Of a stretch of DNA of 45,358 bases, positions 12,765 through 27,402 are shown piece after piece. The notes beneath the pieces were generated by a model that worked only from the letters and a program-made list of their open reading frames with translations, had not been told where the DNA came from and did not search any database. The stretch comes from Chroococcidiopsidaceae cyanobacterium CP_BM_ER_R8_30 (GTDB lineage Bacteria > Cyanobacteriota > Cyanobacteriia > Cyanobacteriales > Chroococcidiopsidaceae), in assembly GCA_019244235.1 (NCBI GenBank), contig JAFASY010000181.1, positions 1 through 45,358 of the forward strand, read 5' to 3'. The stretch's first letter is position 1. Every line of letters begins with the position of its first letter. Made by a program: the position numbers and the translations under genes.

Positions 12765-13397
12765 ATGATACCTTTGCCAACGCCCATTTATCATTTTACG
12801 CATGTCAATAATCTAGTATCTATTCTTGCTCAGGGATTGTTGTCAAACAATGTACTGAAGCAGGGCGATATCAGCTACACCGACGTAGCTCATCGAAGTG
12901 TTCAGGATCGACGTGCTACAAAATCCGTATCTTGTGGACCAGGTGGAGTTCTACATGACTATGTGCCTTTTTATTTCGCGCCACGCTCCCCGATGTTGTT
13001 TACCATCAGCAAAGGTAATGTAGAAGGTTATTCCCAAGGACAAGAGCCACTAATTTACATATCCTCAACAGCACAAGCAGTTAAAGCGGCAGCACTACCA
13101 TTTGTGTTCACAGATGGTCACGGCATTATGGCCATTACTAAATTCTTTGATGACCTTATTGATTTAAGAGAGATTGACTGGGCTGTGATGGCAAGGCGGT
13201 ATTGGAAAGATACTCCAGAAGATAATGAACGCTGCCGACGACGGCAAGCAGAGTTTTTAATTCATGGTTGTTTCCCTTGGAATTTAACCAGAGAAATTGG
13301 TGTTATGAATTTTGCAAGAGAGACCCAAGTGAGGCGAATAATAAAAATTTCACCTCATCAACCACAGATAAGGGTACATAGTGAGTGGTATTATTAA
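12765..13397 (+). CDS. darT: DarT family DNA thymidine ADP-ribosyltransferase toxin (DUF4433)
   Basis: The toxin half of DarTG. It uses NAD+ to attach ADP-ribose to thymidine bases in single-stranded DNA, blocking replication, including that of phages. 210 residues. Seen: the NAD-binding start IYHFTHVNNLVSILAQGLLS (H10, T12), the HRSVQDRR helix, YVPFYFAPRSPML (66-78) and the catalytic glutamate E163 in RRRQAEFLIHGCFPW. All key positions look intact. ATG 12765 gives the standard family N-terminus. It is followed after 170 bases by its antitoxin darG, a wider gap than usual. It lies in the eroded island after tRNA-Val, next to dead defence genes. Confidence 0.9.
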   Translation: MIPLPTPIYHFTHVNNLVSILAQGLLSNNVLKQGDISYTDVAHRSVQDRRATKSVSCGPGGVLHDYVPFYFAPRSPMLFTISKGNVEGYSQGQEPLIYISSTAQAVKAAALPFVFTDGHGIMAITKFFDDLIDLREIDWAVMARRYWKDTPEDNERCRRRQAEFLIHGCFPWNLTREIGVMNFARETQVRRIIKISPHQPQIRVHSEWYY

Positions 13398-13510: not shown

Positions 13511-13535
13511 GCACAAACTCTTTGTGTGTTTGTGC
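13511..13535 (+). promoter_or_regulatory. Hairpin or operator upstream of darG
   Basis: GCACAAAC (13511-13518) and GTTTGTGC (13528-13535) are perfect 8-base arms around a 9-base loop. It is placed 32 bases before the preferred darG ATG and overlaps the alternative GTG start at 13526. It could be an autoregulatory operator or an RNA structure separating darT and darG expression. Confidence 0.4.
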
Positions 13536-13567
13536 AACGCTTTTATAGGCAAGGGCAAGCAGAGCAA

Positions 13568-14608
13568 ATGATTGAGCTTAGGCAAGGCAACTTACTTGAA
13601 ACGGATGCAGAGGCATTAGTCAACACAGTCAACTGTGTTGGTGTCATGGGTAAGGGTATTGCTTTGCAGTTTAAGCAAGCATTCCCCGATAACTTCCGCC
13701 ACTACGAACGAGCTTGTCGAGATAGAGAAGTACAACCAGGCAAGATGTTTACTGTATCTACTGGTAAACTACTCAATCCTAGGTACATCATTAACTTTCC
13801 AACCAAACGCCACTGGAGAGGTAAATCACGATTAGAAGATATTCAGTCTGGACTCTTGGCTTTGATTGCAGAAATTAAGCGTTTAGATATTCATTCCATT
13901 GGTATCCCTCCGTTAGGCTGTGGCAATGGCGGTCTGGAATGGTCGCAAGTAAGACCACTAATTGAGTCAGCCTTTGCAGAATTACCAGATGTGCAAGTAC
14001 TGCTATTTACACCGCAAGGCGCTCCTGATGTTGATTCAATACGCGTCGCTACTAATAAGCCTAAAATAACCCCCGCGCGTGCCTTATTTATCCGCTTATT
14101 GGAACTGTACGGTATCCCTGGTTATCGGTTGACTTTGCTAGAAATTCAAACATTGGCTTATTTTCTTCAGGTAGCTGGCGAGCCACTAAAACTGCAATAT
14201 GTTAAGGAAAAGTACGGTCCCTATGCAAACAATTTAAACCACGTCTTGCAAAGGATCGAAGGACATTTTATCCGAGGCTATGGTGATCGCAGCCAGGAGG
14301 CAGAGATTTATGTGCTTGCCGAAGGTCGGGAAGCCGCACAAACATTTTTGGAAAATGCACCTGATGTGACCAAAGAACGTTTAAACGAAGTCAGCAAACT
14401 AATTGAGGGTTTTGAAACCCCGTATGGATTGGAACTGCTTGCTAGCGTGCATTGGGTGGCGCAAGAAGATCCACGAGCTGCAACTGATGAATCACAAGCA
14501 ATCACTCTAGTGCATAGATGGAGCGAGCGTAAGCACAAACTATTCAAGCCGGAACATATTAGCAAGGCTTGGCAACGTCTTCATGACGAGAATTGGTTAA
14601 CTAAGTAA
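13568..14608 (+). CDS. darG: DarG macrodomain antitoxin (DNA ADP-ribosylglycohydrolase)
   Basis: Antitoxin partner of DarT. The N-terminal macrodomain (about residues 1-155) removes ADP-ribose from DNA: IELRQGNLLETDAEALVNTV, NCVGVMGKGIALQFKQAFP, PTKRHWRGKSRLEDI, and the phosphate loop IPPLGCGNGGLEW. The C-terminal domain (KITPARALFIRLLELYGIPG to AWQRLHDENWLTK) is the DarG region that binds and blocks the toxin. The frame is open to GTG 13526, but ATG 13568 starts exactly at the macrodomain, as in homologues, giving 346 residues. Both domains look complete, so the pair is probably functional. Confidence 0.9.
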   Translation: MIELRQGNLLETDAEALVNTVNCVGVMGKGIALQFKQAFPDNFRHYERACRDREVQPGKMFTVSTGKLLNPRYIINFPTKRHWRGKSRLEDIQSGLLALIAEIKRLDIHSIGIPPLGCGNGGLEWSQVRPLIESAFAELPDVQVLLFTPQGAPDVDSIRVATNKPKITPARALFIRLLELYGIPGYRLTLLEIQTLAYFLQVAGEPLKLQYVKEKYGPYANNLNHVLQRIEGHFIRGYGDRSQEAEIYVLAEGREAAQTFLENAPDVTKERLNEVSKLIEGFETPYGLELLASVHWVAQEDPRAATDESQAITLVHRWSERKHKLFKPEHISKAWQRLHDENWLTK

Positions 14609-15469: not shown

Positions 15470-15721
15470 ATGTCTGAAGATCTTTTATTAGATTTATCTG
15501 CTGAAGAAGCAGCAAGTATTGCAGGTGGTGCAACCTATGGTTTCTCGTACTCACCATCTAGCTCGCCGTTCGCTGGTCAATTCGCTGTAAACGGTCAAAC
15601 CTTTGGTTACAACTACGTGGCAGGACAGCAAGGTCAATTCGCATTTTCGAATCCTTATACTGGGAAGACATACAATGTAGCATGGAATGGCACGGGTGCA
15701 CCGAGCTACTCAGCTGCTTAG
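15470..15721 (+). CDS. Double-glycine-leader peptide, bacteriocin-like precursor
   Basis: 83 residues. The first 20 form a leader of the type cut and exported by peptidase-C39 ABC transporters: MSEDLLLDLSAEEAASIAGG, with the LSxEExxxIxGG pattern. The 63-residue mature part is rich in Gly, Tyr, Phe, Ser and Gln, has no cysteine, and shows two loosely repeated halves (YGFSYSPSSSPFAGQFAVNG and FGYNYVAGQQGQFAFSNP). No modifying enzyme or transporter is adjacent, so export would rely on a distant system. GAGAGG lies 6 bases before the ATG, and a clear terminator follows. The nearest group I recall is the cyanobacterial bacteriocin-type signal-sequence proteins. Activity unknown. Confidence 0.7.
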   Translation: MSEDLLLDLSAEEAASIAGGATYGFSYSPSSSPFAGQFAVNGQTFGYNYVAGQQGQFAFSNPYTGKTYNVAWNGTGAPSYSAA

Positions 15722-15856: not shown

Positions 15857-16100
15857 ACTAATAAGTTTCTGTTATTACTTTATACAATGTTTCACCTCAG
15901 TAGCACAGATCCGAGAAGCAGTGTTAGCAGTAACAATAGATTTGCTACAGTTACAGGGACAGAATGCATACAGTGAGCTACATAGAGCTTATATTCGTAA
16001 CAAGCAGTAAGCCAACTATAGCTACTGACTAAGAACTAGCCACAAAAAAAGCTTTACAATTTTTATTTCTAGTCAGATTTTTCCCCACAATTTCCCCAGT

Positions 16101-16196
16101 TTTTCCACATTGAAAGTTAGCTTTTTCCACAGAAAATCATTCATTTTCCCCAAAACGTTAGGCTGAAATTGGGCAGGTTCGTTCAGCTGTGGATTT
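16101..16196. other. Cluster of DnaA-box-like sites
   Basis: TTTTCCACA, the cyanobacterial DnaA-box consensus, occurs exactly at 16101-16109 and 16123-16131. A reversed looser box (TGTGGATTT) lies at 16188-16196, and near-boxes with CCCC in place of CCAC surround them (16077-16098, 16144-16151). The whole sits in a gene-free stretch of about 660 bases (15857-16516). It could be a replication origin of the chromosome or of a former mobile element, or a DnaA titration site. No dnaA or dnaN gene is in the window. Confidence 0.45.
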
Positions 16197-16516
16197 TAGA
16201 GCAAAGAAAGGGAATACTTAGAAACAGAACGCTTATGTGAAGTTTAGTAAAGAAAAATGCTTCATAAGCTTAATCTTTCGTGGAGCGTTCTGAACAACTA
16301 AGGTTAGCCGTAAAATTTCGCAACATTGACAACTTCCTACTTTAGCCGTCACAATAGTGCGACTAACTCTTTCAACCCCTTGCTCCAACTACTTGCTTGG
16401 GAGAACCCTTTGAGGTTATTTCAGCATCCTCAGAAAGATTAGAGATAAGCTAAAGCCCTAATCTGGTTGGTTGGGAGTAAAGTACAATTTATTTTTTTGA
16501 AAAGGAAAGATTCTCA

Positions 16517-27133: not shown

Positions 27134-27254
27134 TTTTGTATATATGAATACAGTTAATGAAATGAGAAGCTTGGTATCTATTTACTATAGTTGTTACTTA
27201 TTTGTTCTAGATAACCTCTTTAACAGATAGTAAAAGCTTGAAAAATTAGATAGT

Positions 27255-27402
27255 CTCTAGGGTTCCGGCTTAGTTCGCAGATAAACTGACTGCGATTTGG
27301 GTGCCTGGACCGAGAGGGGCAAGCTGGTCTAGAAATGTTTTTACCAAAGCAGGGGAAAACGCTAGGTCAGCCACACGGCGGGACAAAAGCCCGGGAGAAG
27401 TA
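27255..27402 (+). promoter_or_regulatory. Guanidine-I riboswitch (ykkC RNA)
   Basis: All three signature blocks of the ykkC/guanidine-I class are present in order: CTCTAGGGTTCCGG (from 27255), GGACCGAGAGG (about 27306-27316) and CACACGGCGGGACAAAAGCC followed by CGGGAGAAG (about 27373-27400). Downstream, GACAG/CTGTC and AGCCC/GGGCT can form a hairpin that competes with the last conserved helix (27388-27437), a plausible expression platform, though its T-run is weak. It precedes the ABC importer genes at 27616-30326 on the same strand. In this class guanidinium binding turns expression on. Confidence 0.92.

Follow-up and report, generated by a model that had tools for sequence, protein, structure and literature searches.

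Among the closest described systems is the Bacillus subtilis gene for the small protein Sda. According to excerpts of PMC4447404 and PMC8203912, sda is activated by DnaA, and its promoter region prefers the ATP-bound form. The site discussed here resembles it in that an array of DnaA boxes lies upstream of a gene, in this case of the DUF2811 family; unlike at sda, the array is regularly phased and of one orientation, with a promoter-like element about 180 bp downstream and an HLR1-like motif between the two, and the regulation of DUF2811 is a prediction from sequence. In E. coli, DnaA regulates transcription at the nrdAB and dnaA promoters, with an effect that depends on the bound nucleotide (PMC8203912, in part); number of boxes, their placement and gene function all differ from the DUF2811 site. 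E. coli datA, DARS1 and DARS2 and the DnaA-box clusters of Bacillus also have boxes away from oriC; abstracts, however, describe datA and DARS as non-coding elements of control whose distances from oriC are conserved, whereas the present site is bound up with a single family of genes and their promoter region. The last likeness is with the cyanobacterial oriC, which lies between dnaA and dnaN or beside dnaN and has the same box consensus, the same TTTTCCCCA variants and the same phasing of 21/22 bp, but adds opposed boxes at steps of about 18-19, 11, 53-54 and 9 bp, where no more than one reversed box, at +44, is seen at DUF2811.

Searches of the open-licence PMC literature brought up no description of a DnaA-controlled gene in cyanobacteria or of the box site upstream of DUF2811, and no paper that names DUF2811 or PF10929. 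We consider it quite probable that the cluster is an assembly site for DnaA in the control region of a DUF2811 gene, in other words a DnaA-controlled promoter comparable to that of Bacillus sda.

Boxes and gene in the window

The window, i.e., the whole stretch of 45,358 nucleotides analysed, is contig C107 of a genome assembled in 328 contigs. The initial annotation had reported two exact TTTTCCACA boxes 13 bases apart, several near-boxes and a reversed loose box, and all of these are present (Table 1). The main boxes follow each other in the order TTTTCCCCA, TTTTCCACA, TTTTCCACA, TTTTCCCCA, all on the + strand and at steps of 22, 22 and 21 bp; this helical phasing, the single orientation and the recurring +44 offset of the reversed box go beyond what had been noted. 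With up to one mismatch the window as a whole holds 19 boxes against 15.1 expected, which is near chance, whilst a run of four TTTTCC[AC]CA at 21/22-bp steps compares with a maximum of one when the window was shuffled 400 times under a first-order Markov model. The boxes are hence unusual in their clustering and order, not in their number.

The stretch around them had been taken as free of genes, which is wrong: a DUF2811 gene that passes the Pfam gathering score follows the array. An RNA element at the array was considered and rejected: when the window was scanned with Rfam at gathering thresholds, a tRNA and a guanidine-I riboswitch were the sole matches, and both lie away from the array. 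On the other side of the array, a DarTG-type toxin-antitoxin pair ends about 1.5 kb before it. In other bacteria DarT acts on DNA by modifying thymidines. The 83-amino-acid peptide between the pair and the array has, by eye, a double-glycine-like leader and is perhaps the precursor of something like a bacteriocin; it has no Pfam match.

Table 1. Position of features in the window (position 1 is the first letter of the 45,358-nucleotide stretch)
Feature	Position	Strand	Remark
DarT (PF14487)	12765..13397		DarTG-type pair with the next
Macro-domain protein	13526..14608		
83-aa peptide	15470..15721		
Box 1, DnaA-box variant TTTTCCCCA	16079..16087	+	next box +22
Near-box ATTTCCCCA, 2 mismatches	16090..16098	+	at 11-bp half step
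Box 2, exact TTTTCCACA	16101..16109	+	
Box 3, exact TTTTCCACA	16123..16131	+	
Box 4, DnaA-box variant TTTTCCCCA	16144..16152	+	
Reversed loose box AAATCCACA, 2 mismatches	16188..16196	-	44 bp past box 4
HLR1-like (RpaB-type) motif, 2 mismatches	16234..16251	-	
Promoter-like TTGACA-18-CACAAT	16326..16355	+	sequence match
DUF2811 (PF10929) gene, 65 aa	16517..16714	+	E 9.5e-28, 96.7 bits, cut-off 26.6
Guanidine-I riboswitch	27246..27399		66.2 bits

The array and its surroundings across cyanobacteria

Of 291 genomes sampled from the phylum, 129 gave a match to DUF2811 (one being weak and below the cut-off), as did one of 14 control genomes, that of Synechococcus elongatus. Upstream DNA was collected for 183 distinct loci, 177 of them with at least 650 bp; loci with an identical last 250 bp were counted once, and many of the remaining ones are close relatives. 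When an array is defined as a pair of boxes on the same strand, 20-23 bp apart and no more than 700 bp upstream, such a phased pair is seen upstream in 162/177 loci and downstream in 0/122, and in none of the mononucleotide shuffles. Removal of the 15 loci recruited by DNA similarity to the window or as first stretches, so that those found through the gene remain, leaves 147/162 upstream and 0/107 downstream. At least one phased array occurs in 32 of the 33 families, among loci with an assigned family, the exception (f22) being represented by a single genome, G039. Spacings between adjacent boxes peak at 22 (204), 21 (92) and 11 (36) bp, 550 boxes share the strand of the gene and 37 do not, and a locus has on average 3.3 boxes upstream as opposed to 0.1 downstream. 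At one locus, L191, the boxes have the sequence TTATCCACA of the E. coli-type DnaA box. A pair is missing from 15 loci: those of G030, G288 and G039, in which dnaA is not detectable, those of G025, G100, G104 and G117 in genus g14, one of the two copies of G193, and seven of family f34, where in five a box is accompanied by a reversed one 44 bp further along and in two a box stands alone. The g14 and f34 genomes concerned do carry dnaA; in g14 the HLR1-like motif is partly kept as well and the array has decayed. As judged from sequence, boxes that normally mark the start of replication thus sit in the putative control region of DUF2811, and are kept there across cyanobacteria.

The elements 3′ of the array keep their places too. 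HLR1, the site of RpaB, consists of direct repeats of (G/T)TTACA(T/A)(T/A) spaced by 2 nt (excerpts of PMC9241938 and PMC11633204). A similar motif with up to three mismatches is present in 150/178 loci, compared to 33/178 after one shuffle each, and is exact in three; in 111/178 the best such match falls +90 to +94 past the last box. TTGACA-N17..19-CACAAT/TATAAT, with up to two mismatches, follows the array in 162/164 loci (20/164 in shuffles); in 136 of these 164 array-bearing loci its offset from the last box is +180 to +184. Its spacer is mostly 19 nt (131/162), which is long for sigma-70, and 18 nt in the window. Both motifs were searched for after they had been sighted in the window or the consensus, so the shuffles are a mild, post hoc test and the positions are the stronger argument. 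From the promoter-like element to the start codon, on the other hand, there are between about 20 and more than 300 nt, so that the array and the promoter-like element are in register and the leader is not. The boxes, then, stand at a fixed place relative to an element that is recognised as a promoter by sequence match, and they are kept with the gene. The reversed box at +44 is well formed in a minority of loci only: it has at most two mismatches in 15/178 and at most three in 35/178, the next-best offset between 36 and 53 being +45, with five loci at up to two mismatches.

Gene and array also move together. When 77 loci (75 named ones, that of the window and a second one on contig C82 of the same genome) were compared over 3 kb per side by same-side BLAST, the commonest downstream neighbour was, by eye, a convergent response-regulator gene, common to 63 other loci, and the commonest upstream neighbour a hisIE-like gene, common to 43 others. 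The copy on C82 has the usual downstream neighbour, whilst that of the window shares no neighbour with any of the 76 other loci; by its surroundings, it is a relocated second copy, the one in the usual neighbourhood being that on C82. This lends the island border proposed by the initial annotation support of an indirect kind only. The two proteins are 77% identical, and the two upstream regions align in boxes, reversed box, HLR1-like motif and promoter-like element, with an extra 100 bp or so before the gene in the window copy. Since the latter has kept its array without any of the common neighbours, array and gene have moved as one. In family f34, all 20 further copies that were read carry one or more near-boxes in the region from -266 to -421, and DUF2811 occurs on eleven plasmid records, where seven of the eight copies read have near-boxes 20-23 bp apart and one has no array.

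The pattern TTTCCMCA-13/14-TTTCCMCA was searched across 55 genomes, with matches within 500 bp merged into sites. It is present in 43/55, and the reversed control pattern gave two matches in total. Merged sites number 35 at DUF2811, 11 at dnaA/dnaN and 31 elsewhere (24 in genomes with dnaA, seven in those without); sites with at least two pairs number 19, five and four respectively, one of the last being a plasmid array. In the seven family-f1 genomes covered (G000, G001, G005, G006, G012, G013 and G014) all 15 sites are either oriC or DUF2811. Fifteen of the 24 other sites in genomes with dnaA were inspected, together with the plasmid site. Those of G113, G196, G213, G304, G115 and G199 and one of the two in G306 look like oriC, and so does an eighth upstream of dnaN, at G047:414977. 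Another class of sites, in which three perfect TTTTCCACA follow each other every 20/21 bp, occurs in G107, G084, G306, G123, G062 and G047 (loci L358, L359, L361, L363, L364 and L365); those of G062 and G047 adjoin, by eye, a guaA-like gene, those of G107 and G084 have common neighbours, and they are possibly titration sites. On contig C2 of G133 (26.7 kb, taken as a plasmid), a genome with no detectable dnaA, three perfect TTTTCCACA at 21-bp steps (L376, 2651-2701) have an iteron-like appearance. In three genomes with no detectable dnaA, TTTTCCACA nevertheless outnumbers the reversed control, at 112/19 in G030, 93/49 in G031 and 88/37 in G034.

Gain and loss with dnaA

Both genes were scored in 160 genomes chosen with knowledge of their DUF2811 status: 145 with DUF2811 and, among the genomes listed as lacking it, the 15 of the order, leaving out five f34 genomes, the weak G130 and the incomplete f1 genomes G017 and G018. 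DUF2811 is present in 140 of the 140 genomes with dnaA and in five of the 20 without it (G030, G039, G170, G205 and G288), for which Fisher's test, ignoring descent, gives 3e-17. In G035 there are only remnants of dnaA with stops, and no DUF2811. In the four dnaA-less DUF2811 genomes whose upstream DNA was read, the array is gone or reduced, which speaks for DnaA-type sites: in G030 the boxes have disappeared altogether, G288 retains one, G039 has two near-boxes separated by 11 bp, and G205 has a weak pair by the automatic rule, one member of which reads TTTTCCAAA. The HLR1-like motif has one mismatch in G039, three in G205 and four each in G030 and G288; being kept in the first two and weak in the others, it outlasted the array in some of these genomes only. 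G039 was scored as dnaA-less, but since there is a box cluster by dnaN and the assembly, at 95% completeness, is in 130 contigs, the genome may have a dnaA that was not assembled.

A dnaN tree of 29 genomes requires seven changes of dnaA status, five of them forced by well-supported branches. In independent pairs, with G170 and G039 left out and G205 scored as array-bearing, DUF2811 goes with dnaA in three of five and the array in four of five, with none against (sign tests, p 0.25 and 0.125). Once corrected for descent, the apparent joint loss of DUF2811 or its array with dnaA is only suggestive. In the one-contig genome G080 there is no dnaN match at 1e-60. Contigs C2 of G005, C2 and C3 of G006, and G012 encode proteins, most of them 285-328 aa long, that contain an ATPase domain of the DnaA type; they are present in several copies with identical scores and perhaps come from transposons.

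According to excerpts of PMC7198777, Synechococcus sp. PCC 7002 and Synechocystis PCC 6803 can do without dnaA, and the authors state that the function of DnaA in DnaA-independent cyanobacteria 'remains unclear'. Four genomes studied here (G027, G084, G145 and G166) have dnaA and intact DUF2811 arrays, with no box cluster flanking dnaA (1-2.5 kb read) or upstream of dnaN. In these, the array is a candidate for the unexplained role of DnaA. Genus g14 is the opposite case, with dnaA retained and a decayed array.

Alternative readings and a possible second role of DnaA

The initial annotation had taken the cluster for a possible origin of replication or a titration site. As to the former, the array, by its box variants and phasing, does resemble one half of oriC: in relatives the dnaA-side half goes mostly in 21/22-bp steps and in G006 includes the TTTTCCCCA variant (21, 22, 21), which supports the boxes being of the DnaA type. 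It has, however, none of the opposed box pairs typical of oriC, and the source genome has a cluster of the oriC type elsewhere, with eight boxes (up to one mismatch) on contig C14 between dnaA (C14:25871-27193) and dnaN (C14:27738-28868), neither of which lies on C107. The same succession of dnaA, boxes and dnaN is found in G005 and G006, and a cluster of this type beside dnaN, away from dnaA, in G001, G013 and G014. GC skew, sampled as 20 pieces of 20 kb, is irregular and uninformative in G005; in G062 it is roughly V-shaped, with its minimum at oriC near base 1, its maximum at about 2.3-2.4 Mb and the DUF2811 array mid-arm at 3.75 Mb. With dnaA and dnaN on another contig and, in G062, the skew minimum away from the array, we reject it as oriC, and that it should be an origin at all, main or spare, is hardly credible. 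Predictors that count boxes could nevertheless take such an array for oriC.

The array could be a site for titration or nucleotide exchange of DnaA, like datA, DARS or the box clusters of Bacillus, with the adjoining gene there incidentally; it ranks with oriC as the principal phased array of the genomes searched, it is bound to hold some DnaA, as any array of this kind would, and its distance from oriC varies between genomes, for instance between G005 and G006. A sink without a gene would, on the other hand, require neither linkage to a gene nor spacing to a promoter, yet the array stays with a single gene family when this relocates, duplicates or enters plasmids, and keeps its distance from the promoter-like element, which points to control of transcription. 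We regard titration as the purpose of the array as improbable, and as a side effect as possible. It is less probable still that the boxes bind another protein, be it a regulator with the same motif or DUF2811 itself, which by eye could suit a ribbon-helix-helix dimer. The decayed arrays of genus g14, where dnaA is present, would agree with this; but motif, variants and phasing are those of oriC, the boxes of L191 are of the E. coli DnaA type, and in the dnaA-less G039 and, more weakly, in G205 the array has suffered more than the HLR1-like motif. Nor do sequence and fold searches, both weak tests, give the ribbon-helix-helix any support. Monomer models of DUF2811 have mean pLDDT of 64 and 70, a low to middling confidence, and no predicted strand; with them Foldseek gave no match at E up to 0.001, a structural second look gave nothing above Z 4.3 (those being unrelated proteins), and neither list contains a ribbon-helix-helix chain. 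PDB sequence searches, NCBIfam and PHROGs returned nothing usable for DUF2811, and no phage record matches it at E 1e-5.

We thus favour a DnaA-controlled DUF2811 promoter. Most likely, cyanobacterial DnaA would bind the boxes phased by 21/22 bp in a cooperative manner, as at that half of oriC which has a similar phasing. Excerpts of PMC4674748 report that domain IV of Cyanothece DnaA binds paired TTTTCCACA boxes, a single box not clearly, and those of PMC7198777 that DnaA from three cyanobacteria, expressed in S. elongatus, binds the oriC of this species. From its position about 180 bp upstream of the promoter, DnaA on the array could then switch transcription of DUF2811 according to its amount or ATP state, whilst the presence of an HLR1-like motif on the way from array to promoter hints at a further input, of light or redox via RpaB. 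The product of the gene would act in, or report on, processes dependent on DnaA. Binding of DnaA at this place, the direction of regulation, the binding of RpaB and the promoter itself are all things we infer from the sequence.

An array that is conserved with its gene and seems to fade where dnaA is lost suggests a second, overlooked job for DnaA. A more tentative extension, possible in our opinion but short of probable, is that DUF2811 is a dedicated partner of DnaA and its promoter the main conserved target of DnaA outside oriC, the switch being what retains dnaA where replication is independent of DnaA and oriC, with array and gene following once dnaA is lost. DnaA would there be chiefly a transcription factor, reporting the state of replication or energy to a small regulator. 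For cyanobacteria that replicate without DnaA, the array would offer a concrete site and a concrete gene for the role of this protein. If the proposed control is real, it would give a DnaA-controlled gene in cyanobacteria and a first handle on DUF2811, a family present in all 140 of the 140 dnaA-bearing genomes scored.
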